Source of the DNA: Pleomorphomonas carboxyditropha
Lineage (GTDB): Bacteria > Pseudomonadota > Alphaproteobacteria > Rhizobiales > Pleomorphomonadaceae
NCBI RefSeq assembly: GCF_002770725.1
Contig: NZ_NQVN01000010.1
Coordinates: 1 to 64,000 of the forward strand
Direction: 5' to 3'
DNA length: 64,000 nt
Of the stretch, positions 21,071 through 35,940 are shown one piece after another (the stretch's first letter is position 1; the number at the start of each line of letters is the position of its first letter). A program made the translations under genes and the position numbers. The notes beneath the pieces were generated by a model. It ran no database searches, was not told where the DNA came from, and was given only the letters and a program-made list of their open reading frames with translations.

Positions 21071-21262
21071 CGGTTCGCTCCCCGTGTGATAGAGCCGTGA
21101 AACGAAGGCGTCGGCCGGCCGACGGTCGGAAACCACGGCGAATCGTCCCTAGCGTCTCGCCTTGCCATGGCAACACTTGGACCATGGAGCGCCGCGAGGC
21201 AACGTGTTCTTGGGTCTCGCCTTTCGCAGGCGGACCACCCCGGCGGAGATGGATTGACCAGG

Positions 21263-22360
21263 ATGGACGGCCTCAGGGATATCGTCGTTCTCGGCCTCGA
21301 AAGCTCCTGCGACGAGACCGCCGCCGCCGTGGTGCGGCGACGCGCCGACGGATCGGGGGAAATTCTTTCCAACGTCGTCTTCTCGCAGATCGAGGAGCAC
21401 GCGGCCTTCGGTGGCGTGGTGCCGGAGATCGCCGCCCGCGCCCATGTCGAGGTGATGGACGGCCTCGTCGAGGCGGCGCTCGCCGAGGCGGGGCTTTCGC
21501 TTGCCGATGTCGACGCCGTGGCGGCGACGGCCGGGCCCGGCCTGATCGGCGGCGTGCTGGTCGGCCTCACCACCGCCAAGGCGCTGGCCTATGCGGCGAA
21601 GAAGCCGCTCGTCGCCGTCAACCATCTGGAGGGGCACGCACTCACCGCCCGCCTCACCCATGGCGTCGCCTTCCCCTATCTGCTGCTCCTGGTCTCCGGC
21701 GGCCATAGCCAGATTCTGAGGGTCGACGGCGTCGGCCACTACAAGCGCATCGGCACCACCATCGACGACGCGCTCGGCGAAGCGTTCGACAAGACGGCCA
21801 AGCTGCTGCAGCTCGGCTATCCCGGCGGCCCGGCGGTGGAGAAGATGGCGGCCGAGGGCGATGCCGGCCGCGTCGCGCTGCCACGGCCGCTGATCGGCCG
21901 CGACGAGCCGAACTTCTCCTTCTCCGGCCTCAAGACGGCGGTGCGCCACGCGGCGGAGGCGCTGGCGCCGCTCTCCCGCCAGGACGTCGCCGACATCTGC
22001 GCTTCCTTCCAGGCGGCGGTGTCGGATGTGGTGGCCGATCGCGTCGGCCTCGCCGTGAGCCGCTTTGCCGGCATGCGCGCCGACGGCCGCCCGCCGGTGC
22101 TGGTGGTGGCCGGCGGCGTCGCCGCCAACAAGGCGATCCGCAGCCGGCTCGAGGCGCTGATGACCGACCTCAACGGCCGTCTCGTCGTGCCGCCCGGCAA
22201 CCTCTGCACCGACAACGGCGCCATGATCGCCTGGGCCGGCGCCGAGCGGCTGGCGCTCGGCCACAGCGACGGCTTCGATGTGGCGGCGCGGCCGCGCTGG
22301 CCGCTCGACGACATCGCCGCGCCGCTGGTCGGCCACGGCCGGCTGGGGGCGAAGGTATGA
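21263..22360 (+). CDS. tsaD: tRNA N6-adenosine threonylcarbamoyltransferase TsaD
   Basis: A 365-residue enzyme that transfers the threonylcarbamoyl group to A37 of tRNAs reading ANN codons, acting with TsaB, TsaC and TsaE. It belongs to the ASKHA/Kae1 family: [14 protein letters not shown] at the start, the metal-binding [22 protein letters not shown] and [11 protein letters not shown]. An in-frame TTG at 21254 with GGAG five bases upstream is a possible alternative start. The stop codon overlaps gpsA by four bases. The tsaD-gpsA pair divergent from hemC is a familiar alphaproteobacterial arrangement. Confidence 0.94.
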
Positions 22361-23340
22361 GCGACGCCATCGGCATCTACGGCGCCGGCGCCTGGGGCTC
22401 GGCGCTGGCCCTGACGGCGGCGCGGGCCGGCGCCGAGGTAATCCTTTGCGGCCGGAATGCCGAGGAGGCGGAAAGCCTCAACGCCACGCGGCGCAGTCCG
22501 CATCTTCGGGACGCCGTCTTCCCGCCGGCGGTGACGGCGCACGCCGACCCCGCCGCGCTGGCCGACGTCGACCTGTTGCTGCTCGCCGTGCCGGCGCAGG
22601 CCTGCCGCTCGGCGGCGGCGGCACTTTCCGGCGTTGCCGGACCGGAAACGGTGATGGTTTCCTGCGCCAAGGGCATCGAACAGGCAACCGGCGCGCGGCC
22701 CTCCGCGGCGATCGCGGCGGCGCTGCCCGGCCGGCGGGTGGCCGTGCTGTCGGGACCCGGGTTCGCCGACGACGTGGCGCGCGGCCTGCCGACGGCGGTG
22801 ACCATCGCCGCCGAAGACGCGACGCTGGCCGACGCCATCGCCCGCCGGCTGGCCGGTCCCACCTTCCGGCCCTATGCCGCCACCGATGTCGCCGGCGTCG
22901 AGCTGGGCGGCGCGCTGAAGAACGTGCTGGCGATCGCCGCCGGCATCGTCGCCGGCCGGGCGCTCGGCGCGTCGGCGCAGGCGGCGGTCATCACCCGCGG
23001 CTTCGTCGAGATGCGGCGGCTCGCCGCCGCCTTCGGGGCGGAGGCGGAAACGCTGATGGGCCTGTCCGGCTTCGGCGATTTGATGCTGACCTGCTCCTCC
23101 GTCCAGTCGCGCAACTATTCCTTCGGCCTCGGCATCGGCCGCGGCGAGCCGCCGGCAAGCTTCGGCAAGCTCGCCGAAGGGGCGGCCACCGTCGGTATCG
23201 CCGTCCAGAAGGCGGCCGAATTCTCCGTCGAGGTGCCGATCATGACGGCGGTCGCCGAGGTGCTGGCCGGCCATCTGTCCGTCGACGACGCCGTCGACCG
23301 GCTGATGGCGCGCCCGCTCAAGCGGGAAAATGTCATCTGA
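22357..23340 (+). CDS. gpsA: Glycerol-3-phosphate dehydrogenase [NAD(P)+]
   Basis: A 327-residue cytoplasmic enzyme that reduces dihydroxyacetone phosphate to sn-glycerol 3-phosphate for phospholipid synthesis. The nucleotide-binding [10 protein letters not shown] lies at residues 9-18. [21 protein letters not shown], the catalytic lysine in [13 protein letters not shown], and [14 protein letters not shown] follow in the normal order. It is coupled to tsaD by an ATGA overlap. A small hairpin follows the stop codon. Confidence 0.95.
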
Positions 23341-23350
23341 AATCGTCCGG

Positions 23351-23369
23351 CCGTTGCATTTTGCAACGG
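23351..23369 (+). terminator. Hairpin after gpsA
   Basis: CCGTTGCA (23351-23358) pairs perfectly with TGCAACGG (23362-23369) around TTT, ten bases after the gpsA stop. There is no T-tract, so termination is only likely, not certain. Confidence 0.45.
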
Positions 23370-23600
23370 GAGCGGGGGGCGTACTGCCGAGGCGATCAAC
23401 ATCTAGATGGGTCGCCGCCTGGTCCGGGCCATATATTGAAGCGGGCAAAATTGCAGGCGGAAACCGAATCGCAACCATGATCGACGAAACTTCCGGGTGT
23501 CGGCATCCAGGTCGCGCGTAGCCGGCCGGTCCGAATGGACACCGGGTCCGTCCTCGTAATGGTCTTGCGTCGAGGGCGGCCCGAGCCTTCATCCCCCTGA

Positions 23601-24812
23601 TTATGCCAGGAGTTCCTTGAGCGGCCTCGTCTCGACGTCGAGCCGGGAGACATGCTTGCCGGCTTCCAGCAGCTTCTTGGCGGTGACGAAGGCGGCGGGG
23701 AAGTTGAGGGCGTCGACGGCGATCATCGCACCCGCCGCGAAATACCAGACGGCGTGGCTGCCGGGGCGCGGGCCGTCGGTCAGCAGCGTGTCGTCGTAAC
23801 CGTGGTGAAGGCCGGCGATCTGCAGCTTGGCGTCATACTGGTCGGACCAGAACCACGGCTGCGGCGCGTAGGCGCCGCCGGCGCCGATCAGCGCGGCGGC
23901 GGCGGCTTCGCCCTGGTCGAAGGCGTTCTGCACCGATTCGAGGCGAATCAGGCGATCGCCGTAGGGAAAGCGGGCGCAGTCGCCGACGGCGAGGATGTCG
24001 GGATCGGAGGTGCGGCCAAAGGCGTCGACCACGATGCCATCGTCGACGGTAAGGCCGGCCGTCTCGGCCAGACCGGCATTCGGCGCCACGCCGATGCCGA
24101 CGACGGCGAGATCGGCGGCGATCGTCCGGCCGTCGCTCAACTCGGCGCCGGCGAGGCGGCCGTCGGCGCCGACAAGGCGAACGATGGCGGCGCTTTCCAG
24201 GATGTCGACGCCGTGGCTCCGGTGGAGATCGCGGACGAGATCGGCGGTTCCGGCGGCGGCGACGCGTTTCAGGATGCGGTCGGCGAGCTCCACGACGCTG
24301 ACCTCGAGGCCGCGCGTCCGCGCCACGGCCGCCGTCTCCAGGCCGATGTAGCCGCCGCCGATCACCACCAGGCGGCGTCCGGGCTGGAAATCGGCCATCA
24401 GCGCGTCGGCGTCGGCCTTGTCGCGCAGCGTGAAAATGCCCTCGAGGTCGCCGCCGATCACCGCCGGCAGGCGGCGCGGCGTGGCGCCGGTGGCGAGAAC
24501 CAGGGTGGCGTAGGCAAGTTGCTCGCCGCCGTCGAGGCCGACGAGCCGCCGCGTCCGGTCGATGGCAAGGGCTTTACGGCCGGTCAGCACGGTCACCGCG
24601 TTGGCCTCGTACCAGGCCGGCGGCTTCAGGAGCAGCCGGTCGAAGGTCGCCTCGCCGACGAGATATTTCTTGGAGAGCGGCGGCCGCTGGTAGGGCAGCA
24701 CCGGCTCGTCGCCGACGATCGTCACCGGCCGGTCGGAACCGAGCGCGCGGAGCTTGCCGGCGAAGGCGGCGGCGGCCTGGCCGGCGCCAATGATGACAAT
24801 GGGATCGCTCAT
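23601..24812 (-). CDS. NAD(P)H:ferredoxin/rubredoxin reductase-like FAD oxidoreductase
   Basis: A 403-residue flavoprotein of the pyridine-nucleotide disulfide reductase superfamily, close to reductases of bacterial P450 and dioxygenase systems. It has the FAD-binding VIIGAGQAAAAFAGKLR at the start, PYQRPPLSKKYL, a second dinucleotide site LVVIGGGYIGLETAA near residue 150, and the FAD-contact segment VGDCARFPYGDRLIRLESVQNA. It lacks the redox CxxC of disulfide reductases. No ferredoxin or oxygenase gene is adjacent, so the electron acceptor is unknown. It is transcribed away from the sugar locus. Confidence 0.88.
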   Translation of the reverse strand: MSDPIVIIGAGQAAAAFAGKLRALGSDRPVTIVGDEPVLPYQRPPLSKKYLVGEATFDRLLLKPPAWYEANAVTVLTGRKALAIDRTRRLVGLDGGEQLAYATLVLATGATPRRLPAVIGGDLEGIFTLRDKADADALMADFQPGRRLVVIGGGYIGLETAAVARTRGLEVSVVELADRILKRVAAAGTADLVRDLHRSHGVDILESAAIVRLVGADGRLAGAELSDGRTIAADLAVVGIGVAPNAGLAETAGLTVDDGIVVDAFGRTSDPDILAVGDCARFPYGDRLIRLESVQNAFDQGEAAAAALIGAGGAYAPQPWFWSDQYDAKLQIAGLHHGYDDTLLTDGPRPGSHAVWYFAAGAMIAVDALNFPAAFVTAKKLLEAGKHVSRLDVETRPLKELLA

Positions 24813-25155
24813 CTTTTTCTCTTGCTTCGACGCAGCCTGCGGGCGGGCTTACGGGCAAGCTATATCGGGATCGGGCGGCGTGCGGAAGCGGTGGCCGCCG
24901 GCGCGGAGCTTCACGCCTTCCGTCTTTGGTCGCATCGGCCGGAAAGCTGGGCGTCCCGGCTATTTTCCAGTCAAATCAGGGCTTGTCACCCGCTTTGAAC
25001 CGTCACAACATGCAAAGCGGGCATGCGGCGGTCTCGCGGCCGCGACCCGAAGACAAGAAAATGGCTGCCTCCCGGCCGCAAGGTGGGACGGCCGGAGGAA
25101 ACGTGGAGCCGCGCGGCCGGGGAGGGCTCGGCAGCGGTCGATTGGGAGTGACCTG
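24813..25155. other. Divergent intergenic region before the sugar locus
   Basis: These 343 bases separate the flavoprotein gene from the aldolase-like gene and should hold both promoters. I see no gene. The one notable structure is a 9-bp perfect inverted repeat at 24989-25021. Confidence 0.55.
24989..25021. promoter_or_regulatory. Inverted repeat upstream of the aldolase-kinase operon
   Basis: CCCGCTTTG (24989-24997) is perfectly repeated in reverse as CAAAGCGGG (25013-25021), 15 bases apart and about 135 bases before the start codon at 25156. It may be an operator or an RNA hairpin. No regulator gene is beside it. Confidence 0.35.
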
Positions 25156-26184
25156 ATGTTCCGTCTTGACGAAAAGCTGGCCCGCATCCGGGCGGGCGCC
25201 TATACGCGCGCCGATTTCATCATCGCCGATGCCAAGGACCCGGATATGGGGCCGTCGATCCCCGGCGCCGGCCCGCTCAGGGCCAAGGACGGAACGCTTG
25301 GCCGTTATCAGACGCGTCCGGAATTCCTGGAGAACGTCCGCGCCATCGTCGAGCAGGACGTCGTCGACATCATGCTGACGTCGGCGTCCAGCTTCGAGCT
25401 GCTCAACGAGCAGGGCGTCTACAAGAATTCGCACGTGAAGCCGGCGATCCGCGCCAACGACACCACCGACATCTGGTTCGTGCGCGGCGGCGTCTACCCG
25501 AAGAAGCCGTCGCGGCCGTTCCGCACCGCGTCGCTGTCGCGGGTGACCACCGGCACCGTCGATCCGGCGCCTGGCGCGCCGCTGGTCGGCACCGACCTCG
25601 GCCTCTATTCGATGACCTTCAACAACGATATCGAGCACGACTATGCCTCGCTGGAGGCGTTCGCCGAGTTCCGCTACGAGGCGTCGCTCAACGGCTTCAA
25701 GTATTTCCTCGAAGTGTTCAATCCCAACGTCGACACCGGCATCGATGCCGATCTGGTGCCGCACTACATCAACGACTGCATCGCCCGCTGCCTCGCCGGC
25801 GTGACCCGGGCCGACCGGCCGGAGTTCCTGAAGATCGCCTACAACGGCCCGAAGGCGATGGAGGAGCTGGCGTCCTACGATCCGACGGTGATCGTCGGCG
25901 TGCTGGGCGGCGGCGCCGGCACGACGCGCGACTGCTACGAGCTGATCTTCCAGTCGGAGAAATACGGCGCCCGCGTCGCGCTGTTCGGCCGCAAGATCAA
26001 CCTCGCCGAGGATCCGCTCAGCATGGTCCGGCACATGCGGGCGGTGGCGAGCAGCGACCTTTCGCCTTCCGAGGCGGTGAAGTCCTATCACGGCGACCTC
26101 GCCAAGGCCGGCATCAAGCCCAGCCGCGAGCTCAACGCCGATCTCGAGGTGACCGAGAAGCCGCTCAAGGCCGGGCTCGCCTGA
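25156..26184 (+). CDS. Class I aldolase-like TIM-barrel protein (DeoC/LacD superfamily)
   Basis: A 342-residue protein resembling class I (Schiff-base) sugar-phosphate aldolases of the DeoC/LacD/LsrF superfamily. The late segment PEFLKIAYNGP would supply the Schiff-base lysine. VIVGVLGGGAGTTRDCYELI followed by ALFGRKINLAEDP resembles the phosphate-binding GG...GR of that superfamily. The exact family is not recognised, so the substrate is open. The ATG has GGGAG seven bases upstream. The PfkB kinase starts two bases after its stop, which suggests that kinase and aldolase act in sequence on one sugar. Confidence 0.6.
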   Translation: MFRLDEKLARIRAGAYTRADFIIADAKDPDMGPSIPGAGPLRAKDGTLGRYQTRPEFLENVRAIVEQDVVDIMLTSASSFELLNEQGVYKNSHVKPAIRANDTTDIWFVRGGVYPKKPSRPFRTASLSRVTTGTVDPAPGAPLVGTDLGLYSMTFNNDIEHDYASLEAFAEFRYEASLNGFKYFLEVFNPNVDTGIDADLVPHYINDCIARCLAGVTRADRPEFLKIAYNGPKAMEELASYDPTVIVGVLGGGAGTTRDCYELIFQSEKYGARVALFGRKINLAEDPLSMVRHMRAVASSDLSPSEAVKSYHGDLAKAGIKPSRELNADLEVTEKPLKAGLA

Positions 26185-26186
26185 TC

Positions 26187-27203
26187 ATGCCGGCGGCAAG
26201 ACGCGGCATCGTCACCGGGGGAACCTGGTGCGTCGACAACAATCGCCTGATCAGCTTCTGGCCGGAGGAGGACGGCATCGCCGAAATCCTTTCCCAGGAG
26301 CTGGCCGGCGGCGGCTCCGGCTGCAACCTCGCGGTCGACATCCGGCATCTCGATCCGGCGATGCCGGTCGAGACCATCGCCATCGTCGGCGACGACGAGG
26401 GCGGACGTTTCCTGAGGAGCATCGCCGAGGAGGCGGGCATCGATCACCGGCAGATGCACGTCGACGGTTCGCTGCCGACGCAGTTCACCGACGCCTATGC
26501 CTCGGCGACGACGCATCGCCGCACCCACCTGTTCGCCAAGGGGGTGGCGGCGTCGCTCACCCCCGACCACTTCGATCTCGCAGCGACGACCGGGCGCATC
26601 CTGCACCTGGGGCTGCCGGGGTTCCACAAGCAGCTCGACGGCGTCTGGGCGGATGGCGACAACGGCTGGGTGACGGTGCTGAAGAAGGCGCGCGCCCTCG
26701 GTCTCAAGACCAATATCGAGCTGGCCAGCCTCGAGGCGCGCGTGCTCGCCGACACGGTGATGCCCTGCCTCGGTCACCTCGACTATGTCGTGGTCAACGA
26801 CGCCGAGATCGGCGCGCTGGCCGGCCTGCCGACGGTCTGCCATGGCGTCACCGACGCCGGCCTTTGCGAGGCGGCGGCGCGGAAGGTGCTGGAAGACGGC
26901 GCCATGGAGCTGGTGGTGGTGCACTGGCCGAAGCTCGCCATCGCGGTCGCCCGCGACGGCACGGTTGCCAGGAAGACCTCGTGCGCCGTTCCGCCCGATC
27001 TGGTGGTCGGCGCCAACGGCGCCGGCGACGCCTTCGCCGCCGGCATGATCTACGGCCTCCACGAGGGCTGGCCGCTCGAAAAGTCGCTGGCGCTGGCCCA
27101 TGCGACGGCGGCCTGCTCGCTCCGTTCGGTCACCACTTCCGGCGCGGTGGTCGGCTGGCAGGAGACGCTGAGGCTGGCGGACGCCTGGGGCTGGAAGGTC
27201 TGA
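26187..27203 (+). CDS. PfkB family sugar kinase
   Basis: A 338-residue carbohydrate kinase of the ribokinase/PfkB family. It shows the N-terminal glycine-rich substrate-binding region (LAGGGSGCNLAVDIRHL, about 47-63) and the C-terminal signature VVGANGAGDAFAAGM near residues 274-288, with the catalytic-base aspartate. The substrate is probably a ketose or ketose phosphate, inferred from the coupled aldolase-like gene two bases upstream. A terminator hairpin follows. The sequence is not close to any single characterised kinase that I can name. Confidence 0.85.
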   Translation: MPAARRGIVTGGTWCVDNNRLISFWPEEDGIAEILSQELAGGGSGCNLAVDIRHLDPAMPVETIAIVGDDEGGRFLRSIAEEAGIDHRQMHVDGSLPTQFTDAYASATTHRRTHLFAKGVAASLTPDHFDLAATTGRILHLGLPGFHKQLDGVWADGDNGWVTVLKKARALGLKTNIELASLEARVLADTVMPCLGHLDYVVVNDAEIGALAGLPTVCHGVTDAGLCEAAARKVLEDGAMELVVVHWPKLAIAVARDGTVARKTSCAVPPDLVVGANGAGDAFAAGMIYGLHEGWPLEKSLALAHATAACSLRSVTTSGAVVGWQETLRLADAWGWKV

Positions 27204-27213
27204 AACAAAACTT

Positions 27214-27244
27214 CCCCGGCAGGGCTACCCGCCGGGGGATTTTC
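27214..27244. terminator. Terminator between the convergent kinase genes
   Basis: CCCCGGC (27214-27220) pairs with GCCGGGG (27231-27237). Beyond a bulged A, GGG (27222-27224) pairs with CCC (27228-27230). The stem is followed by GATTTTC on the plus strand. It ends the aldolase-PfkB operon and may also serve the opposite FGGY kinase. Confidence 0.75.
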
Positions 27245-27249
27245 ATTGA

Positions 27250-28722
27250 TCACCAGGCGGAAAAGGTCGCCCGTGCCGCGTTGAACGGCTTCAGCGCCGC
27301 GTAGAGCGCGCGGTATTCGCCATAGAGAAAATCCATCCGCTCGCGCCGCGACGGATCGGGCTCGAACAGGCGGTCGGTGGCGACCAGGCGGGCCGCTGCC
27401 TCGCCGATCGACGCAAAGCAGCCGGCGCCGACACCAGCGAGGATGGCCGCTCCCAGCACGCCGGCATCGAGCGTCTTGAGCCGGCGGATCGGCCGGCCCA
27501 GCATGTCGGCGCGGATCTGGCACCAGGGATCGGCGGCGGCGCCGCCACCGGCCATCGAGAAGCCCGTCGCCGGCCGGCCGGCCGAGGATTCCAGCGCCTC
27601 CAGGAGCCAGCGCACCGACGCCGCCACGCCCTCGAAGACGGCGCGCGTCAGGTCGGCCGGTCCCATGGAGCCGTCGAGGCCGATGAAGGCGCCGCGGGCG
27701 CCGATGTCCCAGATCGGCGCCCGCTCGCCCTGAAGATGCGGCAGGAACAACGGCGCCGGACGATGGGGATCGCCGGCGGCGGCGAGGGCCGACAGCTCGG
27801 ACGGCGCTCTGCCGGTGAGGTTCGACAGCCAGGCGAGCGAGGCGCCGCCCGCCTGCGTCGGGCCGGCGTGCAGCGTGATGCCCTCGCAGGTCGGAAAGGC
27901 GACGACGCCGGCGGCGGGATGGCGCGTGCTCGACACCAGGCCGACGATCTCGGAGGTGCCGGAGAGATACATGCAGTCGCCGTCGGCCAGGACGCCGGTG
28001 CCGATGAGTCCGGCCCAGGCGTCCATGGCGCCGGCGACCATCGGCGCGCCGGCGAGCGGCAGCCCCGACCGGATGCGGCCGGCCGGCCGGGTGAAGCCTC
28101 GAAGCGGCGGCAGCCGATCGGCGACGCCCGGCACCAGGTCGACGAGGCGGGGCACGTAGGCGAGCGACTGGTCGATCAGGCCGAAGGCGGTCATCGGGTC
28201 GGCGGTGGCCTCGCCGGTCAGACGCAGGATGCAGTAGTCCTTGGGCGCCATCAGCCAGCGCGTCTTCGCCCAGACGTCGGGGCGGTGGCGCTTGACCCAG
28301 AGGGCGCGGGCCAGCGGATGGCTGGCATCGATCGGCAGCGGCGCGCCCCACCAGCCGATGCGCTCCTCGGCGGAGACCTGCGCGTCGAGCTCGGCGGCTT
28401 CCGCGCCGGCGCGGCCGTCCTGCCAGGTGATCGCCGGCATCAGCGGCGCGCCGTCCCCGCGCAGGAAGACGTGGGTGTTGACCTGGCTGGTCAGCCCGAC
28501 GGCCGCGACGGCGCCGTCCGGCAAGCCGTCGGAGAGACGGGCGAGCGCCGCGGTGACGCGGCCCGTCCAGTCGTCCGGGTGCTGCTCGGCAAGCCCCGGA
28601 GCCGGCCGCGCCGTCGGATAGGGTTCGGCGTATGTGCGGAGTGCCGTGCCGCTTTCGTCGAACAGGCTGGCCTTGACCGAGGTGGTGCCGACGTCGATGC
28701 CGACGAGGAGGGGCGTCTTCAT
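27250..28722 (-). CDS. FGGY family carbohydrate kinase
   Basis: A 490-residue sugar kinase of the FGGY (xylulokinase/glycerol kinase-like) family. The ATP-binding domain begins LLVGIDVGTTSVKASLFDESG. GLTSQVNTHVFL, the catalytic aspartate in VAGAMDAWAGLIG and the phosphate-binding MAGGGAAADPWCQIRADMLG follow in order. The start at MKTPLL was chosen because it precedes the ATP-binding strand directly; an in-frame ATG at 28800 would add 26 residues that look non-coding. The substrate is probably a pentulose, hexulose or polyol. It is divergent from the ABC transporter genes and likely shares their regulation. Confidence 0.88.
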   Translation of the reverse strand: MKTPLLVGIDVGTTSVKASLFDESGTALRTYAEPYPTARPAPGLAEQHPDDWTGRVTAALARLSDGLPDGAVAAVGLTSQVNTHVFLRGDGAPLMPAITWQDGRAGAEAAELDAQVSAEERIGWWGAPLPIDASHPLARALWVKRHRPDVWAKTRWLMAPKDYCILRLTGEATADPMTAFGLIDQSLAYVPRLVDLVPGVADRLPPLRGFTRPAGRIRSGLPLAGAPMVAGAMDAWAGLIGTGVLADGDCMYLSGTSEIVGLVSSTRHPAAGVVAFPTCEGITLHAGPTQAGGASLAWLSNLTGRAPSELSALAAAGDPHRPAPLFLPHLQGERAPIWDIGARGAFIGLDGSMGPADLTRAVFEGVAASVRWLLEALESSAGRPATGFSMAGGGAAADPWCQIRADMLGRPIRRLKTLDAGVLGAAILAGVGAGCFASIGEAAARLVATDRLFEPDPSRRERMDFLYGEYRALYAALKPFNAARATFSAW

Positions 28723-28839
28723 GGGAGAATCCGGAGGCAGAACATGCGGCGCCGAGATCATCACGCCGGTTCCTGTCTGTCCATCCCGGAGGCCCCTCAA
28801 TCGACGGTGATTCGCGGCTTCGTGTTGAACGCCATCCCT

Positions 28840-28897
28840 CCGGCTGCTAACTGTTTTTCAGCCGGGGGGTCGACGGAGGACGCGCGCCTCCGACGAC
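28840..28897 (+). promoter_or_regulatory. Tandem hairpins in the leader of the ABC importer operon
   Basis: CCGGCTG (28840-28846) pairs with CAGCCGG (28859-28865). Directly after it GTCGACGGAGG (28869-28879) pairs with CCTCCGACGAC (28887-28897) with one A-A mismatch. Both are on the plus strand, just before the binding-protein gene at 28928. They could stabilise the mRNA or act in attenuation. Confidence 0.45.
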
Positions 28898-28927
28898 CGG
28901 CCCGAAAGAAAAACGGGGAACGCACAC

Positions 28928-29860
28928 ATGACAGCTTCGCTCCGCACGCGGCTTCCGACCGCCGCGCTGTTCCTTTCCGCCGTGCTGGCGGCCGGCGCCG
29001 CCGCGGCGGCCGGCAAGATCGCGGTGATCACGCCCTATCTGGCCCAGCCGGGCACCCAGTTCTACGTCGAGGCCTTCCAGGAGGCCGCCAAGGACAAGGC
29101 GTGGGACGTCAACGTCATCGACACCAAGGGCGACGTCGCGGCCGTCATCTCCCGCCTCGAGGACGCGGCGACGCAGAAGGTCGACGCGGTGGTGATCAAC
29201 GTCGATCCGGCGCAGGTCGAGGCGGGGCTTGCCGCCGTCAAGGACGCCGGCATCCCGGTGGTCGGCATGGATGCCGGCGCCAGCCCCTATCTCGTCACCA
29301 ACGTGACGTCCAACGGCTATGCCATGGCCGCCGACACCGCCGCCTATGTCGCCAACCGGATCGGCGGCAAGGGCAACGTCGTCATGTTCGTGTTCGACGC
29401 CTTCCCGCCGGTGCAGGTGCGCGGCGTGATCGCCGACGCGGTGTTCGGCAACAATCCCGACATCAAGGTGCTCGACCGGGTGACGCCCGACGTTTCGGAC
29501 GGCGGCATCGCCGACAGCCGCGCCAAGATGGAGGCGATCCTCGCCGCCAACCCGGACAAGGGCTCGATCTCGGCCGTCTGGGCGGCCTGGGACCAGCCGG
29601 CGCTCGGCGCGCTGCAGGCGATCGAGGCGGCGGGCCGTCAGGACGAGGGCATCGTCGTCACCGGCATCGACGCCAATCCGCAGGCGCGCGAGGCGATCGC
29701 CGCCGGCGGCAATTTCGAGGCGTCGATGGCGCAGGATTTCCACGGCATCGGCAAGGCCGCCGCCGAGGCGGTGGCCCAGACGCTCTCCGGCAAGCCGCCG
29801 AAGTCGTCGGTCGTCTACGTGCCGACCAAGCTGATCACCGCCGACAACGTCGGGGACTGA
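28928..29860 (+). CDS. Ribose-type ABC transporter substrate-binding protein
   Basis: A 310-residue periplasmic binding protein of the RbsB-like (Peripla_BP_4) type. A signal peptide covers about residues 1-28 (basic start, hydrophobic core, cut after AAAAA). The mature part begins GKIAVITPYLAQPGTQFYVEAF and shows VDAVVINVDPAQVEAGLAAVKDAGIPVVGMDAG, typical for this fold. It should deliver a monosaccharide or related sugar to the permease. It is the first gene of the importer operon, behind two leader hairpins, and is followed by a small hairpin before the ATPase gene. Confidence 0.92.
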   Translation: MTASLRTRLPTAALFLSAVLAAGAAAAAGKIAVITPYLAQPGTQFYVEAFQEAAKDKAWDVNVIDTKGDVAAVISRLEDAATQKVDAVVINVDPAQVEAGLAAVKDAGIPVVGMDAGASPYLVTNVTSNGYAMAADTAAYVANRIGGKGNVVMFVFDAFPPVQVRGVIADAVFGNNPDIKVLDRVTPDVSDGGIADSRAKMEAILAANPDKGSISAVWAAWDQPALGALQAIEAAGRQDEGIVVTGIDANPQAREAIAAGGNFEASMAQDFHGIGKAAAEAVAQTLSGKPPKSSVVYVPTKLITADNVGD

Positions 29861-29882
29861 CGGGTATTTCGCAACACCGGAT

Positions 29883-29900
29883 GGGTGGCAGGTGCCGCCC
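29883..29900 (+). promoter_or_regulatory. Intercistronic hairpin between binding protein and ATPase genes
   Basis: GGGTGGC (29883-29889) pairs with GCCGCCC (29894-29900) with one T-G pair around AGGT. Hairpins at this place in ABC operons often let the binding protein be made in excess over the membrane parts. That role is inferred. Confidence 0.5.
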
Positions 29901-29919
29901 TTCCCAATGGATTTCTCCC

Positions 29920-31449
29920 ATGACGCTGCTTTCGATCCGCGACCTCGACAAGAGCTTCGCCGGCGCCCGGGCGCTCGGCGGCGCCTCGCTCGAGGTGCGG
30001 GCCGGCGAAGTGCATGCCCTGATGGGCGAGAACGGCGCCGGCAAGTCGACCTTGATCAAGGTGCTGGCCGGCGTGGTGAAGCCGGACGCCGGAACGATCG
30101 AGATCGACGGCGCGCCGGTCGCCATCGCGTCGCCGGCCGAGGCGCTCCGCCTCGGTCTGCGCTTCATCCACCAGGAGCTGTCGGTGGTGCCGCATCTGTC
30201 GGTCGCCGAGAATATCTTCCTCGGCCGCGACTATCCGCGCCGCTGGGGCGTCTGGATCGACTGGGACGGTCTCAATCGCCGTGCCGCCGCCGTGCTGGCC
30301 GGCCTCGGCGTCAGCCACATCCAGCCGGCGCGCAAGATGGCGCGTCTTTCGGTCGGCGACCAGATGCTGGTGAAGATCGCCGCCGCCTTTCAGGATGCCA
30401 GTCTGGAGGGCGGCGCCCCGGCCCGCCTCTATGTGATGGACGAGCCGACGGCGGCGCTGTCGGCCGAGGAATCGCAGCGCCTGTTCGCGGTGATCCGCCG
30501 GCTGCGCGCGGCGGGCGCCGGCATCGTCTACGTGTCGCACCGGCTCGACGAGGTGATGGAGCTCGCCGATCGGCTCACCGTGCTGCGCGACGGCTCCACG
30601 GTGGCGACGCGCGACATCGCCGGCCTCCAGAAGCTGGAGGTGATCGAGCTGATGATCGGCCGCCGGTTTGCCGAGGGCTATCCGCCGCGCCTGGCGCCGG
30701 TGTCGGACGAGGTGGCGCTCGGCGTCGAGCATCTTTCCACAGCTTATCTACAGGACGTGTCCTTCGAGGTGCGCAAGGGCGAGATCCTCGGCCTTGCCGG
30801 TCTCGAGGGCGCCGGCCAGAGCGAAGTCATCCGGGCGATCGTCGGCGCCGACGGCGGTCACGACGGCGCCGTCAGCCTCGCCGGCCGGCCGGTCCGGATC
30901 GAAGAGCCGGTGTCGGCCTGGCAGAAGGGCCTCGCCTTCCTGCCGCGCGAGCGGCGCCAGGAAGCGCTGGTGCCCTCGGCGTCGATCGCCGGCAACGTGT
31001 CGCTGCCGCACCTCGACGATCTCGTCCGCTTCGGCCTCGTCCTCGACCGGGCGGCGGAGGCCGAACAGGCGGTGGAACTCGGCCGGCAGGTGAAGCTCAA
31101 GGCCAAGGGACCGCGCCAGAAGGTGCGCGAGCTCTCCGGCGGCAACCAGCAGAAGGTGGTGTTCGCCCGGGCGATCGCCGGCAAGCCCGAGGTGCTGCTG
31201 CTCGACGAGCCGACGCGCGGCGTCGACGTCGGCGCCCGCTACGATATCCACGCCTTGCTCCGCGAGCTGACGGCCGAGGGAAAGGCCGTGGTGCTCGCCT
31301 CTTCCGACCTGCCGGAGCTCGTCTACATGGCCGACCGCGTCATCGTCTTCCGGGACGGCAAGGTGGCGACCACCGTTTCCACCGAGGGCCTCGACCAGGC
31401 CGGGCTCGCCGCCCTCTGCTTCGGCGCGCCGGCCGCGCCCTCCGCCTGA
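29920..31449 (+). CDS. Ribose-type ABC transporter ATP-binding protein (double ATPase)
   Basis: A 509-residue cytoplasmic ATPase with two ABC domains, as in RbsA/MglA/XylG. The first domain has Walker A GENGAGKST at 36-44, LSVGDQMLVKIAAAF in place of a strict signature, and VMDEPTAALS. The second has a degenerate Walker A (GLEGAGQSEV) but a full signature LSGGNQQKVVFARAI and LLLDEPTRGVDVGARYD. That asymmetry is usual for the family. An insertion around residues 155-165 (DASLEGGAPAR) lengthens the first domain slightly. It is followed 11 bases later by the permease gene. Confidence 0.93.
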   Translation: MTLLSIRDLDKSFAGARALGGASLEVRAGEVHALMGENGAGKSTLIKVLAGVVKPDAGTIEIDGAPVAIASPAEALRLGLRFIHQELSVVPHLSVAENIFLGRDYPRRWGVWIDWDGLNRRAAAVLAGLGVSHIQPARKMARLSVGDQMLVKIAAAFQDASLEGGAPARLYVMDEPTAALSAEESQRLFAVIRRLRAAGAGIVYVSHRLDEVMELADRLTVLRDGSTVATRDIAGLQKLEVIELMIGRRFAEGYPPRLAPVSDEVALGVEHLSTAYLQDVSFEVRKGEILGLAGLEGAGQSEVIRAIVGADGGHDGAVSLAGRPVRIEEPVSAWQKGLAFLPRERRQEALVPSASIAGNVSLPHLDDLVRFGLVLDRAAEAEQAVELGRQVKLKAKGPRQKVRELSGGNQQKVVFARAIAGKPEVLLLDEPTRGVDVGARYDIHALLRELTAEGKAVVLASSDLPELVYMADRVIVFRDGKVATTVSTEGLDQAGLAALCFGAPAAPSA

Positions 31450-31460
31450 AGGAACTCTCC

Positions 31461-32411
31461 GTGGCTTCCGCGTTCAAGACCTACGGCACGCTGATCGGCT
31501 TCGTCCTCGTCGTCGTTTTCTTCTGGATCGAGATCCCCGACACCTTCATGACGGCGAAGAACTGGCTGAACATCAGCCAGCAGGTGTCGATGCTGGCGGT
31601 GGTCGCCTTCACGATGACCATCGTCATGGTGATGGGCGACTTCGACCTCTCCGTCGGCTCGATGGCCTCGCTTGCCGGCATCGTGGCGGCGCTTGCCTTC
31701 CGCGACGGCCATGGCGTGTGGGTCGGCGTGGCGCTGGCGCTTATCGTCGGTCTCGCCGGCGGCCTCCTCAACGGCGCGCTCGTCGCCTATGTCGGCATCC
31801 TGCCGTTCGTGGCGACGCTCGGCACGCTGACCGTCTACAGCGGCCTCGCCTTCCTGGTCTCCGGCGGCAAGACCATTTTCGGCCGCGACATTCCCACCAC
31901 CTTCTCGGGCTTTGCCCGCTCCGGCATTCCGCTCGCGGAGACGATAAGCCTGCCGAGCCTGACCATCGTCGCCGCGCTGGTGCTTATGGTCGTCTGGTTC
32001 GTGCTGGAGCAGACCACGTTCGGCCGGCGGCTCTACGCCATCGGCGGCAACAAGGAGGCGGCGCGCCTCGCCGGCATCCGCGTCAGGCGGCTGCGCTTCC
32101 TCGCCTTCGGCCTCAGCGGGCTCGGCGCGGCGACGGCCGGGCTGATGTATGCGAGCCGGGTGGCCTCGGCCAACCCGACGCAGGGCTCGGGCCTGATGCT
32201 CGACGCCATCGCCGCCGTCTTCCTCGGCATGACCATGAGCGAGGAGGGCGAGCCGCACGTGGCGGCGACGCTGGTCGGCGTGCTGATCCTCGGCGTGCTC
32301 GGCAACGGCCTCACCCAGATGAGCATCGACAGCTACGTGCGCGAGGTGCTGATCGGCTCGATCATCGTGCTCGCGGTGGCCACATCGTCGATCGGCAAGG
32401 CGAGGGGATGA
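31461..32411 (+). CDS. Ribose-type ABC transporter permease
   Basis: A 316-residue inner-membrane permease of the RbsC/BPD_transp_2 type with eight to ten hydrophobic segments. Diagnostic sequences are MGDFDLSVGSMASLAG, GILPFVATLGTLTVYSGLAFLVSGGKTI and RRLYAIGGNKEAARLAGIRVRR. The start is GTG at 31461, chosen because AAGGA lies about eight bases upstream and the N-terminus then matches the family. It completes the importer with the two genes before it. Confidence 0.92.
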   Translation: MASAFKTYGTLIGFVLVVVFFWIEIPDTFMTAKNWLNISQQVSMLAVVAFTMTIVMVMGDFDLSVGSMASLAGIVAALAFRDGHGVWVGVALALIVGLAGGLLNGALVAYVGILPFVATLGTLTVYSGLAFLVSGGKTIFGRDIPTTFSGFARSGIPLAETISLPSLTIVAALVLMVVWFVLEQTTFGRRLYAIGGNKEAARLAGIRVRRLRFLAFGLSGLGAATAGLMYASRVASANPTQGSGLMLDAIAAVFLGMTMSEEGEPHVAATLVGVLILGVLGNGLTQMSIDSYVREVLIGSIIVLAVATSSIGKARG

Positions 32412-32469
32412 GACGGCGACGCCGCCGGCCACGGCCGACGGCGTTGCATGCATCCTTGATGTCCGGTCT

Positions 32470-33735
32470 TCAGATCCGGATGCCCTCGGTCATCAGGCCT
32501 TGCACCAGGCTGCCGGAAGTCGGCAGCAGCGGGATCAGGCAGGCCTGCACCGAGTGGTAGATGTCGGGCCGGCCGTAGAAGGGGTTGGTGGCCGGCCGGT
32601 TTTGCGCGTCGAGCTGCGGGATGAAGGCGCCGGTCGCCCGGTCGATCAGGTGATCCGTGGTGAAGTCCCAGATGCGGCGATACCAGTCCTCGTAGAAGGG
32701 GTCGCCGGTGATCGACGCCAGGAAGTGGGCGGCGCCGATACCCTCGCAGCAGGGCCACCAGAAGCGGTCGGGCACCGACGGTTTGCCGTCCCAGCCAACG
32801 GTGTAGTAGAAGCCGCCGCGCTCGCTGTCCCAGCCCTCGCCGACGGCGAGGCGGAACAGGTTCTGCGCCGCGTCCGGCAGCCAGCCGAGCTTGCGCCCGC
32901 CGAGCTCCCAGAGCTGGAGCAGGAGACGCGCCCATTCCAGCCAGTGGCCGGGCGTCGAGCCGTAGGGCTTGAACATCGGGTTGCCGACATAGTCGAGCGT
33001 CAGGTTCCACTTGCCGTCGAAATGCTCGGGCAGCCGCCAGCCGTTGCGCGAGGCGAAACGGTCGACGATCAGCTCGGCGATGCTCTCGGCCTTGCGCAGA
33101 TATTCCGTGTCGTCGGTCACCTCGAAGGCCGCCATCAGCGACTCGGTGAGGTGCATGTTGGAGTTCTGGCCGCGATAGTCGCCGATCGGCTGCCAGTCGG
33201 CGGTGAACTCCTCGGCGACGGCGCCCGGCACCGGCTCCCAGAAGCGGGAAACCAGGATATCGGTGACGTCGGCGATCAGCCTGTCGGCATCGGGATGGCC
33301 GGCCGCCTTGGCGGTGGCGCCGGCGAGAAGAACGTGGGCATGGCCATAGGCCTGCTTGGTGGGATCGGTCAACGTGCCGTAGCCGACGCCCCAGTGATAG
33401 CCGCCGTTCGCCGCGTCGCGGTGGCCGTTCCACAGGAAATCCATGCCCTGGTCGACCACCGTCGCGGCGCCGGGCCGGCCCATCAGCGAGGCGATGCCGA
33501 AGGCGTGCACCAGGCGGGTGGTGATGTGGAGATTGCGCGAGGGTGGCAGGCCGCCGTCGGCGCCCGGCGCCATCGGCCGCCCGGCCTCGTCGAGCTCGAA
33601 ATAGCCGCCCAGCGGGTTGCGGCAGCCGGCCTCGAAGAAGGAAAAGAGCGCGTCGGCGCGGCCGAGCAGCCAGAGGCGATGAGGCGCGCGCTCCACCCAG
33701 CGGCCGTGCGCGGCGGATTTCAATTGCCTGAGCAT
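32470..33735 (-). CDS. AGE-family sugar isomerase, YihS-like
   Basis: A 421-residue alpha/alpha-barrel enzyme of the N-acylglucosamine 2-epimerase (AGE) family. As I recall the sequences, it resembles the YihS (sulfoquinovose/mannose isomerase) branch most: LMGRPGAATVVDQGMDF, GDYRGQNSNMHLTESLMAAFEVTDD, LPEHFDGKWN, YGSTPGHWLEWARLLLQL and the final DIYHSVQACL. Histidines H195, H238 and H394 and arginine R74 fall at positions expected for the active site. It would convert an aldose to a ketose. It lies downstream of the GH36 gene on the same strand and converges on the permease gene. Confidence 0.85.
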   Translation of the reverse strand: MLRQLKSAAHGRWVERAPHRLWLLGRADALFSFFEAGCRNPLGGYFELDEAGRPMAPGADGGLPPSRNLHITTRLVHAFGIASLMGRPGAATVVDQGMDFLWNGHRDAANGGYHWGVGYGTLTDPTKQAYGHAHVLLAGATAKAAGHPDADRLIADVTDILVSRFWEPVPGAVAEEFTADWQPIGDYRGQNSNMHLTESLMAAFEVTDDTEYLRKAESIAELIVDRFASRNGWRLPEHFDGKWNLTLDYVGNPMFKPYGSTPGHWLEWARLLLQLWELGGRKLGWLPDAAQNLFRLAVGEGWDSERGGFYYTVGWDGKPSVPDRFWWPCCEGIGAAHFLASITGDPFYEDWYRRIWDFTTDHLIDRATGAFIPQLDAQNRPATNPFYGRPDIYHSVQACLIPLLPTSGSLVQGLMTEGIRI

Positions 33736-33852
33736 TTCTTTTCCTCCCGGGGCGGCGGTGCGTCTCCAGCCGTCTCTATCTTTTTAGCACCGCCCGCCGT
33801 CGGGACAACTTCAGGAAATCACCGAGCCCAGCCTTTCGCTTGGCATGGTTGA

Positions 33853-35940
33853 TTACCGTACCGACTCCAGTTCGAGGAGCAGGGCGGTTTCCGGCCGCTG
33901 CATCGGCAACGGCAGGCCGGCGCCGGCAAGCGCCGCCGCGCTGAAGGTCAGTTCGCCGGAGAGGAGCCTCCTCTGGCCGTCGCTCATGCGGATGAAGCCG
34001 GAGGGGCAGTCGCCATGCGCGGCGGCGATCCGCCACAGCCTTTCCGGCGCGCCCGGCAGGCCGAGGGTGAGCGGCTCCGGCTGCTCGCCAATCATGGCCG
34101 GTCCCTGCGCCACGAAGACGGCGGCATGGTCGGCCGTCTTGGCGCCCCAGACGTAGCGGCCGTCGCGCGGGTCGAGGTTGAAATTGGCGCCCGGCGCGTG
34201 CAGGAGCGGCCTCAGGCGCTTGTGGAGCGCGATGAAGCCGGCGAGTTCCGTCCGTTCGGCGGCGGTCATGTCGAGCGGATTCAGCTCGACGCCGAGGTGA
34301 TAGGCGAGCGCCACCAGCGCCCGGAAGGTCAGCGACAGCGTCCGGCCGGTCTGGTGGCTGGGGTTGGCCGAAACATGGGCGCCCATTGTCTCCGGCGGCA
34401 GGAACAGGCTGGCGCCGCGCTGGATCTCCAGCCGCTCGAGGGCGTCGGTGCCGTCCGATGTCCAGACGCGCTGGGTACTCGCGAGCGCGCCGTAGTCGGT
34501 GCGGCCGCCGCCCGAGGCGCAGCTTTCGATCTCGACATGCGGGAAGGCGGCGCGGATGCGGGCCATCAGCGCATGGACGGCGCGGGTCTGGGCGGTGGTC
34601 GCCGCCCGCCCGTCGGCGCCGCCGACATGCGTGAGGTCGCGGTTCATGTCCCACTTGACGTAGGAGACGGCGAGCGACCCCAGCACGGCCGACATCCTGT
34701 CGAACAGGTAATCGGCGACGTCCGGCCGCGTCAGGTCGAGCACCAGTTGATGGCGCGAGCGCAGGAGGGGCCGGCCTTCCACCTTCAGCGCCCAGTCGGG
34801 ATGGGCGCGGTAGAGATCGGACTCCTCGTTGACCATTTCCGGCTCGAACCAGAGGCCGAACTGCATGCCGAGCGAGGTGACGTGGTCGACGAGCGGCTTC
34901 AGGCCGTCCGGATACTTGCGGCGATCGACCGTCCAGTCGCCGAGCGACGTGGTGTCGTCGTCGCGGCGGCCGAACCAGCCGTCGTCGAGGACGAAGCGCT
35001 CGATGCCCAGGGCGGCGGCGGCGTCGGCCTGCGCCTTGAGGGAATCGAGGCGGTGGTCGAAATAGTTGCCTTCCCAGGTGTTGAGCGTCACCGGGCGCGG
35101 GCTCATGGCACCACCCGGCCAGGACAGGATTTCCGAGCGCACGAAGGCGTGCAGCGCCGCGGCGTCCTCGGCGGCATAGGCGATCGGGCTCTGGTAGCTT
35201 TGGTTCCTGGCAAGGCGGATCTCGCCCGGCTCGAACAGCGCGCCGAGATGGACGAGGCGGCGGCCGTCGTCGAGCGTGTCGACGGCGACGAGGTGGTTGC
35301 CGCTCCAGCCGAGGTGGAAGGCGAAGCGGGCATTGCCGGCGTCGATACCGAGATAGGGCTGGCGGTCATGGCTGGTGCGGCCGCGCCGGCTTTCCTGCAA
35401 GGCGAGGCCGGGAGCGAGAGGATGGCGGCGGATCTGGAATTCCCGTCCCCACATGCCGGTGAAGCGGGTGGCTGTGGCGGCACCCGCCGGCAGCAGGAAG
35501 CTGCCGGCCATGCAGCGGTCGAGCGTATAGACGCCGTCCTTGACCGAGGTGAGGCGGGTGGAAAGGCCGAACACGCCGGTGTCGCTCGTCCGGACGGCAA
35601 TCTCGATGTCGATGCCGGCAATGGCGTCGCTTGCCGTCAGCACCGTGGTCGCGCCGTCGCGGCGGGCGGTCCAGCCCGAGAAGTCGAGGAGGAAGTCGCG
35701 GCCGTCGCGATGGCCGGCGATGGCCGGCCAGCCGAACGCCCCGAGGCCGGTCACCGGCAGCAGCACCGCCGAGGGGACGTCGATGTCCATGCCGTTGACG
35801 CGGCTCGAACGCGGCACGTCCGGCCAGAAGCCCGGCGCCGCCGCGCCGCGGCCGAAAGCGAGGATTTCCGGCATGCCGCGGTCGGGCAGGCCGAGGGCAA
35901 GCGAAAGCGGACCGGCGGAAAGGGTGAGGGTGGACGGCAT
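33853..35940 (-). CDS. GH36 alpha-galactosidase
   Basis: A 695-residue glycoside hydrolase of family GH36, subgroup I (alpha-galactosidase type), expected to release terminal alpha-galactosyl residues. Domains are an N-terminal beta-sandwich (to about 300), a TIM barrel with NTWEGNYFDHRLD and FVLDDGWFGRRDD, and a C-terminal sheet. The nucleophile is D431 in YVKWDMNRD and the acid/base is D496 in WTSDGTDALERLE. There is no signal peptide, so hydrolysis is in the cytoplasm after uptake. The start at MPSTLTL fits the family; an in-frame ATG at 36129 would add 63 residues of non-family sequence. The isomerase gene lies 117 bases downstream. Confidence 0.93.
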   Translation of the reverse strand: MPSTLTLSAGPLSLALGLPDRGMPEILAFGRGAAAPGFWPDVPRSSRVNGMDIDVPSAVLLPVTGLGAFGWPAIAGHRDGRDFLLDFSGWTARRDGATTVLTASDAIAGIDIEIAVRTSDTGVFGLSTRLTSVKDGVYTLDRCMAGSFLLPAGAATATRFTGMWGREFQIRRHPLAPGLALQESRRGRTSHDRQPYLGIDAGNARFAFHLGWSGNHLVAVDTLDDGRRLVHLGALFEPGEIRLARNQSYQSPIAYAAEDAAALHAFVRSEILSWPGGAMSPRPVTLNTWEGNYFDHRLDSLKAQADAAAALGIERFVLDDGWFGRRDDDTTSLGDWTVDRRKYPDGLKPLVDHVTSLGMQFGLWFEPEMVNEESDLYRAHPDWALKVEGRPLLRSRHQLVLDLTRPDVADYLFDRMSAVLGSLAVSYVKWDMNRDLTHVGGADGRAATTAQTRAVHALMARIRAAFPHVEIESCASGGGRTDYGALASTQRVWTSDGTDALERLEIQRGASLFLPPETMGAHVSANPSHQTGRTLSLTFRALVALAYHLGVELNPLDMTAAERTELAGFIALHKRLRPLLHAPGANFNLDPRDGRYVWGAKTADHAAVFVAQGPAMIGEQPEPLTLGLPGAPERLWRIAAAHGDCPSGFIRMSDGQRRLLSGELTFSAAALAGAGLPLPMQRPETALLLELESVR

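Follow-up and report, generated by a model that had tools for sequence, protein, structure and literature searches.

In the sulfoglycolytic pathway of Escherichia coli that follows Embden-Meyerhof-Parnas logic (sulfo-EMP), an isomerase of family PF07221, a C1-phosphorylating PfkB kinase and a class I aldolase produce dihydroxyacetone phosphate (DHAP) and an aldehyde, as set out in the excerpted account of PMC9594981. The same logic of isomerase, PfkB kinase and class I aldolase can be read in an eight-gene locus at positions 25156 to 35940 of the window, that is, the whole analysed stretch of 64,000 nucleotides (positions 1 to 64,000 of contig NZ_NQVN01000010.1 of Pleomorphomonas carboxyditropha). 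In the present study, we analysed this locus and conclude that its core is not the alpha-galactosidase or the isomerase but a pair of adjacent genes, which encode a predicted class I aldolase of an unnamed family (ALD) and a ribokinase-family sugar kinase (PFKB).

At the level of homology, the locus and sulfo-EMP differ. ALD has no detectable similarity to YihT (15.8 bits, E 1.5; hhalign probability 0.2%), PFKB belongs to the same superfamily as YihV but scores only 21 bits, and a GH36 alpha-galactosidase takes the place of the sulfoquinovosidase YihQ, to which it has no similarity (18.9 bits, E 0.78). The eight genes include neither a reductase nor a regulator. We suggest that the window system works like sulfo-EMP without belonging to it. 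The parallel with sulfoglycolysis drawn in a first-pass annotation of this DNA thus stands in logic and falls in homology, and its remark that sulfoquinovosidase and sulfolactaldehyde reductase are missing was correct. Sulfoglycolysis itself was rejected once the proteins of the locus had been compared directly with those of the E. coli yih genes.

Liver-type fructolysis, which employs ketohexokinase, aldolase B and triokinase, would be alike in letting a ketose 1-kinase act ahead of a class I aldolase that yields DHAP and glyceraldehyde, provided that the substrate favoured below is right. Its aldolase, however, is of another family than ALD, and PFKB scores 19.8 bits against the prokaryotic ketohexokinase model PF25270, below the cut-off of 35. 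A cassette of glycosidase, isomerase, kinase and aldolase has been discussed for the yih genes and for lactose in the part of PMC5816610 consulted here. To that extent, the lactose cassette and the tagatose-6-phosphate pathway (LacABCD) bring together the same four activities as the window locus, and PFKB belongs to the PfkB family, which includes LacC but does not by itself decide the substrate; the window locus has no phosphotransferase system (PTS) and no LacAB, and ALD has no PF01791 match.

The aldolase and its kinase

The ALD gene (25156..26184, plus strand) encodes a protein of 342 aa and is followed after 2 bp, on the same strand, by the PFKB gene (26187..27203; 338 aa; PfkB, 114 bits). 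The genome that carries them, a Pleomorphomonas-type assembly of 5.88 Mb in 80 contigs, encodes an ALD 96% identical to that of several named Pleomorphomonas genomes. No Pfam model matches ALD at E<=0.001, PF01791 (LacD-type) included, and the NCBIfam model of the LsrF-type thiolase yields only 20.8 bits against a cut-off of 297. The fold is far more telling: an AlphaFold2 model computed from a 48-sequence alignment (pLDDT 94.9) has the TIM barrel of the DhnA/LsrF-type class I aldolases, with LsrF as the best Foldseek match (E 9e-10, TMt 0.68) and archaeal class I fructose-bisphosphate (FBP) aldolases at TMt 0.77-0.79. The best 50 matches, which are about 11-18% identical to ALD, also include the ADH synthase of M. 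jannaschii, LacD-type tagatose-bisphosphate aldolases, Cgl0159 and an FBP aldolase of Slackia.

Seven residues of ALD (D25, R99, N101, E186, K226, G278 and R279) are unchanged in 48 of 48 aligned sequences, the window protein included. K226 sits on the strand formed by residues 225-228 of the model, strand 6 of the barrel. LsrF is again the best solved relative when the profile of the 48-sequence alignment is searched (E 0.001), and hhalign (E 4e-5, probability 70%, 88 columns) places K226 exactly on K203 of the E. coli protein, which we take to be its Schiff-base lysine. A C-terminal segment with a glycine and an arginine also aligns with LsrF (HMMER); in LsrF-type aldolases it presumably binds phosphate. 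Fold, lysine position by profile comparison and this segment are thus common to ALD and the DhnA-type enzymes (LsrF, archaeal class I FBP aldolase and ADH synthase), from which ALD differs in its low identity (12-16% in the fold matches), a glutamate (Glu186) on strand 5, a conserved RANDTTD motif, to which the invariant R99 and N101 belong, and the lack of any Pfam model that reaches it. Because of the fold and the position of the invariant lysine, we read ALD as almost certainly a class I aldolase, and very probably as an active enzyme of an unnamed family of this class. The earlier label, "aldolase-like", was therefore apt, in spite of the missing Pfam match. In plasmids, 47 records match ALD; the match is near full length and annotated in 28, in every case as "hypothetical protein" (28/28), 18 of the 47 lack annotation at that place, and one is a 29% partial match under another name.

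PFKB carries the motif GAGD at 278-281, which is unchanged in 26 aligned sequences. Its structural model (pLDDT 94.8) is led by ribokinases among the Foldseek matches, with YihV at rank 49, and the best NCBIfam model is IolC, at 66.7 bits against a cut-off of 300. We propose that PFKB is a ketose 1-kinase and ALD a ketose-1-phosphate aldolase.

Two other roles were considered for ALD. That it is the sole FBP aldolase of its genomes is unsupported: the window genome has two class II aldolases of family PF01116. In the three f31 genomes, PF01116 finds nothing, and PF01791 proteins are present; a search with PF00274 was matchless even in its controls and hence uninformative. A replacement of transaldolase by ALD and PFKB, in a sedoheptulose-bisphosphate route, was rejected, as the PF00923 transaldolase family is present in 7 of 7 ALD genomes.

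Genomic settings of the aldolase

We found 152 ALD relatives in genome contigs and studied the loci of 80, with plasmid loci in addition. Neighbours were counted by tblastn within 8 kb of ALD, because gene calling had mis-stranded or missed ALD in GC-rich loci (e.g., L006, L010, L018, L023, L024, L096 and L097). The family is seen in Alphaproteobacteria, Vibrio, Thioglobus, Propionivibrio, Verrucomicrobiota, Planctomycetota and Chloroflexota. With the window genome counted, ALD occurs in 13 of the 14 genomes of the genus that were searched and, sporadically, in 7 of 289 sampled genomes of the class.

A PFKB-type kinase accompanies ALD in 61/80 loci, always at a distance of 101 bp or less, in Alphaproteobacteria and one member of the Verrucomicrobiota. 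The remaining 19 loci have no adjacent PFKB in the tblastn test; at one of them, L056, the contig stops inside ALD, and two loci, L062 and L077, have a PfkB-family gene that falls below the test, at 65 bp and about 3.5 kb from ALD, respectively. That the two proteins act in one pathway is very likely. At L103 (9020-10065, Rhizobium sp. RCAM05350), the PFKB region is annotated as two shorter genes.

The arrangement of the window locus exceeds what chance would give: L004-L011 and L013, 9 of the 80 further loci, hold all eight genes in the same order. The isomerase of the AGE family stands beside ALD in 10/80 and GH36 in 9/80 (8 within 8 kb, since in L010 the GH36 gene lies beyond that distance), all of them Pleomorphomonas-type; L008 and L011 group with Pleomorphomonas in the tree, and L012 is an uncultured Pleomorphomonas. 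The first-pass annotation had taken the galactosidase for the defining entry enzyme, a claim that these counts do not bear out: since the isomerase and GH36 accompany ALD in Pleomorphomonas-type genomes only, a galactoside-specific route is unproven. Its expectation that the genes would be found together in relatives holds for the genus, where the full set surrounds the more widespread ALD-PFKB pair. Its EMP-like logic of isomerase, PfkB kinase and class I aldolase is upheld by the fold and lysine of ALD, by the frequency of PfkB kinases and by the presence of two unrelated isomerase families beside ALD.

At L012, where ALD is 79% identical to that of the window, the 7.4-kb contig holds a GH13 protein between ALD and the isomerase, together with a ROK protein, and no GH36, PFKB or importer. 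The GH13 protein is amylosucrase-like by eye (Pfam Amylosucrase_C-like, 22.0 bits, below the cut-off of 27). Homologs of the window isomerase occur in 196 plasmid records. In the four inspected (51-56% identical), ALD is not nearby: three are absent from the 47 ALD-matching records, and in the fourth, Shinella H4-D48, about 0.3 Mb separates ALD from the isomerase gene.

Other companions of ALD reach beyond the genus. FGGY kinases lie near it in 35/80 loci and parts of the ribose-type importer in 42/80, and FGGY, importer, ALD and PFKB are found together also in L023, L043, L093-L095, L100 and L115, with AraD and a ribulokinase-like FGGY preceding the pair in L093-L095. An aldo-keto reductase is present in 25/80, of which 19 are near copies of each other, and a uridine-kinase-like protein (FRCK), whose name FrcK we take from rhizobia, in 24/80. 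The D-lyxose/D-mannose isomerase family PF07385 is found near ALD in 20/80; 19 of these form one clade with L098, mostly single-cell "AG-" genomes and presumably marine. Loci of this clade (L058, 98-1501; L052, 1559-4804) also encode PF02952 isomerase-like, transketolase N-terminal-type and glycerol-kinase-like FGGY proteins. In two metagenome-assembled genomes of Hyphomicrobiales (L034 and L037, 10001-18600), a hemC-tsaD-gpsA block, recognized by eye, lies near ALD, on the opposite side compared with window positions 20150-26184.

Where PFKB is missing, other enzymes often stand beside ALD. A relative of the ADP-dependent glucokinase/phosphofructokinase, a kinase type uncommon in proteobacteria, lies within 1.3 kb of ALD in L044, L047, L049 and L096 and on plasmids of Sinorhizobium americanum (L111) and Pleomorphomonas (pSM30-1, L110), the Pfam ADP_PFK_GK match having been checked for L111. 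L096 is a second ALD paralog of the window genome (contig 22, 9813-13211), with the kinase, 41% identical to that of L111, 1.2 kb off. Seven plasmid loci, and L082 of Salipiger, have an FGGY kinase and a GlpD-like dehydrogenase near ALD. A sugar-binding regulator and an importer join these two in Agrobacterium, Martelella, two Rhizobium and L082; the dehydrogenase and FGGY are likewise found in Vibrio nigripulchritudo and Shinella (L109), and in Vibrio an aldehyde dehydrogenase gene follows directly 3' of ALD. DhaK is found near ALD in Lichenicola and L048. In L062 (2229-3944), the gene directly before ALD encodes a PfkB kinase with a fused phosphoribulokinase/uridine-kinase-like domain.

For the PVM microcompartment of L-fucose and L-rhamnose breakdown, a class II aldolase is the one aldolase named in the parts of PMC4207490 and PMC8217296 consulted here. 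In 7/80 loci, which are PVM-like (L060, L061, L063, L076, L078, L080 and L081), ALD is found with bacterial microcompartment (BMC) shell genes and beside or near the class II aldolase, i.e., as a second aldolase, and an aldehyde dehydrogenase gene directly follows it; L060 also has an acetate kinase gene. No BMC shell gene is among the eight window genes. A third ALD paralog of the window genome (L097; contig 13, 7584-11663; 49% identical) lies with an FGGY kinase and a fucose-isomerase-like protein of family PF02952, and groups in the tree with the ALD of Planctomycetota microcompartment loci.

In a tree of 103 rows, the settings of ALD are clustered yet recurrent, with 14 changes compared with a minimum of 7 and a shuffled mean of 47.0. 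The pairing with PFKB appears in both halves of this midpoint-rooted tree, which has several long branches and 21 open forks.

Other proteins of the locus

All eight genes are open frames and, ALD with its missing Pfam match apart, agree with the first-pass annotation in matching the models of the families to which it had assigned them; these identities, like the fold and invariant residues of ALD and its adjacency to PFKB, were computed. The genes form four strand units: ALD-PFKB (+), FGGY (-), binding protein-ATPase-permease (+) and GH36-isomerase (-). The FGGY kinase (27250..28722, minus strand; 490 aa from an ATG at 28722, the frame being open from a TTG at 28800) is xylulokinase-like and of uncertain role (FGGY_N/FGGY_C 107/119 bits; XylB model 248.6 bits, below the cut-off of 380). 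The importer, of the ribose type (CUT2), consists of a periplasmic sugar-binding protein (28928..29860; Peripla_BP_4, 147 bits; nearest solved chains 3l49 and 4wt7), an ATPase with two ABC domains (29920..31449; 509 aa; ABC_tran, 176 bits over two stretches) and a permease (31446..32411; BPD_transp_2, 136 bits), whose start codon is uncertain and which overlaps the ATPase stop; all three are on the plus strand.

The isomerase (ISO; 32470..33735, minus strand; 421 aa) is an aldose-ketose isomerase of the AGE/YihS family (GlcNAc_2-epim PF07221, 368 bits) and D-mannose-isomerase-like, mannose isomerase and YihS being its nearest named models and structures. It is 33% identical to E. coli YihS and retains the positions that we take to be catalytic in that enzyme; other pocket positions, at YihS 51, 238, 362 and 379, some of them presumably in contact with the sulfonate, are changed. 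The GH36 alpha-galactosidase (33853..35940, minus strand; 695 aa from an ATG at 35940) matches Melibiase with 398 bits, the GH36 N-terminal domain with 93 bits and the solved AgaB with 356 bits, and carries KWDMNR at 429 and SCASGGGR at 473, presumably the nucleophile and acid/base motifs. No signal peptide was visible by eye, and the oligosaccharide would therefore need to be imported. GH36 and ISO, on a common strand and 117 bp apart, are probably one operon. Phosphofructokinase of family PF00365 is absent from the window genome.

Discussion

Collectively, these results are best explained by a sugar-catabolic island built around a C1 kinase and a ketose-1-phosphate aldolase, a reading to which we assign a probability of roughly 0.5. 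The ribose-type importer would take up a monosaccharide, while the cytoplasmic GH36 and ISO would free an aldose from an alpha-galactoside and convert it to the ketose; PFKB would phosphorylate the ketose at C1, and ALD, acting through a Schiff base, would split the ketose-1-phosphate into DHAP, which would enter glycolysis, and an aldehyde. In Pleomorphomonas, the favoured course would lead from D-mannose through D-fructose and fructose-1-phosphate to DHAP and D-glyceraldehyde. GH36 would release galactose from raffinose- or galactomannan-type oligosaccharides, and FGGY would serve as a second ketose kinase or as the kinase of a side branch. We infer the position of the phosphate, the products of the cleavage, the substrate and the job of FGGY.

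GlpD oxidises next to a CH2-O-P group, and this reaction, like fuculo- and rhamnulokinase chemistry, gives ketose-1-phosphates. By analogy, a ketose-1-phosphate would be the product common to the PfkB kinase, the ADP-dependent kinase, FGGY with a GlpD-like dehydrogenase, and an isomerase with a fuculokinase-type FGGY. It is because of this shared product, and of the frequent genes for aldehyde handling, that we assign the C1 phosphorylation to PFKB and the cleavage of the ketose-1-phosphate to ALD, and we lean slightly towards a cleavage into DHAP and an unphosphorylated aldehyde. A search of titles and abstract openings found no description of a native bacterial class I ketose-1-phosphate aldolase of the ALD kind, and did turn up synthetic work on xylulose-1-phosphate. 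Somewhat short of even odds, we place the broader idea that the ALD family is the hub of a modular pathway found across phyla, in which the suppliers of the ketose-1-phosphate are exchangeable and the aldehyde is then reduced, oxidised or encapsulated. More tentatively still, we suggest mannose/fructose as the sugar handled by the window locus. Fructose is the most economical ketose because two unrelated mannose/lyxose-type isomerases occur near ALD and the GH13 neighbour in L012, if amylosucrase-like, would free fructose by splitting sucrose. As the fructose source of the window genome itself, sucrose splitting by GH13 was rejected.

Several observations weigh against this interpretation. The L012 GH13 protein has no ortholog in the window genome (best match 34% over part of its length), the product of GH36 is galactose rather than mannose or fructose, and the best NCBIfam match of ISO, the D-mannose isomerase model ManIsomPseudo (NF051846), stays at 338.8 bits, below its cut-off of 600. 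The 19 lyxose-isomerase loci count as one event because they form one clade. The FGGY kinases beside ALD are of differing types, xylulokinase- and ribulokinase-like, and L017, L020, L051 and L012 have none of the proposed suppliers in full (FGGY alone in L020 and L051, and no kinase on the L012 contig). HMMER, unlike hhalign, places K226 one column before K203 of LsrF, and E. coli FbaB gives no usable match to the ALD profile. Three further settings suit a bisphosphate: in L079, PFKB and ALD lie beside GAPDH and PGK and a protein that is TPI-like by eye; in the f31 loci, an enolase gene, also recognized by eye, is within several kb of ALD; and the fusion in L062 suggests two phosphorylations. 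A ketose-1,6-bisphosphate would account for L079 and for the loci with two kinases just as well.

PFKB might thus be a phosphofructokinase-type enzyme acting on a ketose-6-phosphate, made by FGGY or by an FrcK-like kinase encoded elsewhere, and ALD a new class I fructose- or tagatose-1,6-bisphosphate aldolase, so that all carbon would pass to triose phosphates with no free aldehyde. Beyond the settings of L062 and L079, this accords with the many loci that have two kinases, counting FGGY and FRCK, with the replacement of PfkB by an ADP_PFK_GK-type kinase in some loci, with the archaeal FBP aldolases among the nearest folds and with the missing PF00365, for which such a PFKB could substitute. 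Yet the window genome already has its two class II aldolases, ALD is sporadic, and such a route has no need of the aldo-keto reductase, aldehyde dehydrogenase and FGGY-GlpD settings; we regard it as unlikely, though a serious contender. To the same degree unlikely is that the island merely gathers unrelated pathways, with GH36 and ISO serving one sugar, FGGY and the importer another and ALD-PFKB a third. The four strand units, the rarity of GH36 and ISO with ALD among the 80 loci and the four ISO plasmids would agree with such a patchwork, but nine further loci of the genus keep the eight-gene order, ISO is still with ALD on the L012 contig, and the group of FGGY, importer, ALD and PFKB recurs in the seven loci named above.

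A tagatose route independent of the PTS, in which GH36 yields galactose, ISO converts it to tagatose, FGGY and PFKB make tagatose-1,6-bisphosphate and ALD cleaves it, would employ every enzyme, including GH36 and both kinases. LacD is among the fold matches of ALD, and AGE enzymes interconvert 2-epimers through the ketose. Against it, no link of GH36 with ALD exists outside the genus among the 80 loci, PFKB reaches only 20.3 bits with the tagatose-kinase model (cut-off 420) and ISO is nearest to mannose isomerase and YihS, which makes the route improbable. Inositol catabolism would offer a precedent for a pair like IolC and IolJ acting on a deoxy-keto-sugar acid phosphate: IolC is the best model for PFKB, and Cgl0159, an ALD fold match, presumably comes from the iol region of C. 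glutamicum. L112 has an "inositol monophosphatase" and an oxidoreductase of the Gfo/Idh/MocA family, which includes inositol dehydrogenases, within 8 kb of ALD. However, no iolA/B/D/E-type gene is among the annotated neighbours, which are part of all neighbours, and the scores are far below the cut-off, so that we consider this pairing very improbable. Least probable is a variant of sulfo-EMP acting on sulfoquinovose. The identity of ISO to YihS and its retained catalytic residues speak for it, and the missing orthologs of YihQ, YihT and YihV, the missing reductase and the changed YihS positions speak against it.

We return to the C1 kinase and ketose-1-phosphate aldolase pair as the preferred reading. 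If the broader idea of ALD as a cross-phylum hub is true as well, its pathway would stand in bacteria as a general equivalent of fructolysis and sulfoglycolysis. The case for an unnamed aldolase family as the hub of a pathway is credible: its recurrence in several phyla beside different sugar-phosphorylating enzymes points to a widespread way of splitting sugars into three-carbon units, as far as sequence comparison can tell. Many loci for sugars and polyols, among them loci of rhizobia and agrobacteria, hold ALD next to kinases and importers, and naming the ALD reaction would correct the annotation of all of them at once. The enzyme might also supply another DHAP aldolase for synthesis, and knowledge of its function would help us to understand how plant-associated bacteria use sugars and polyols.

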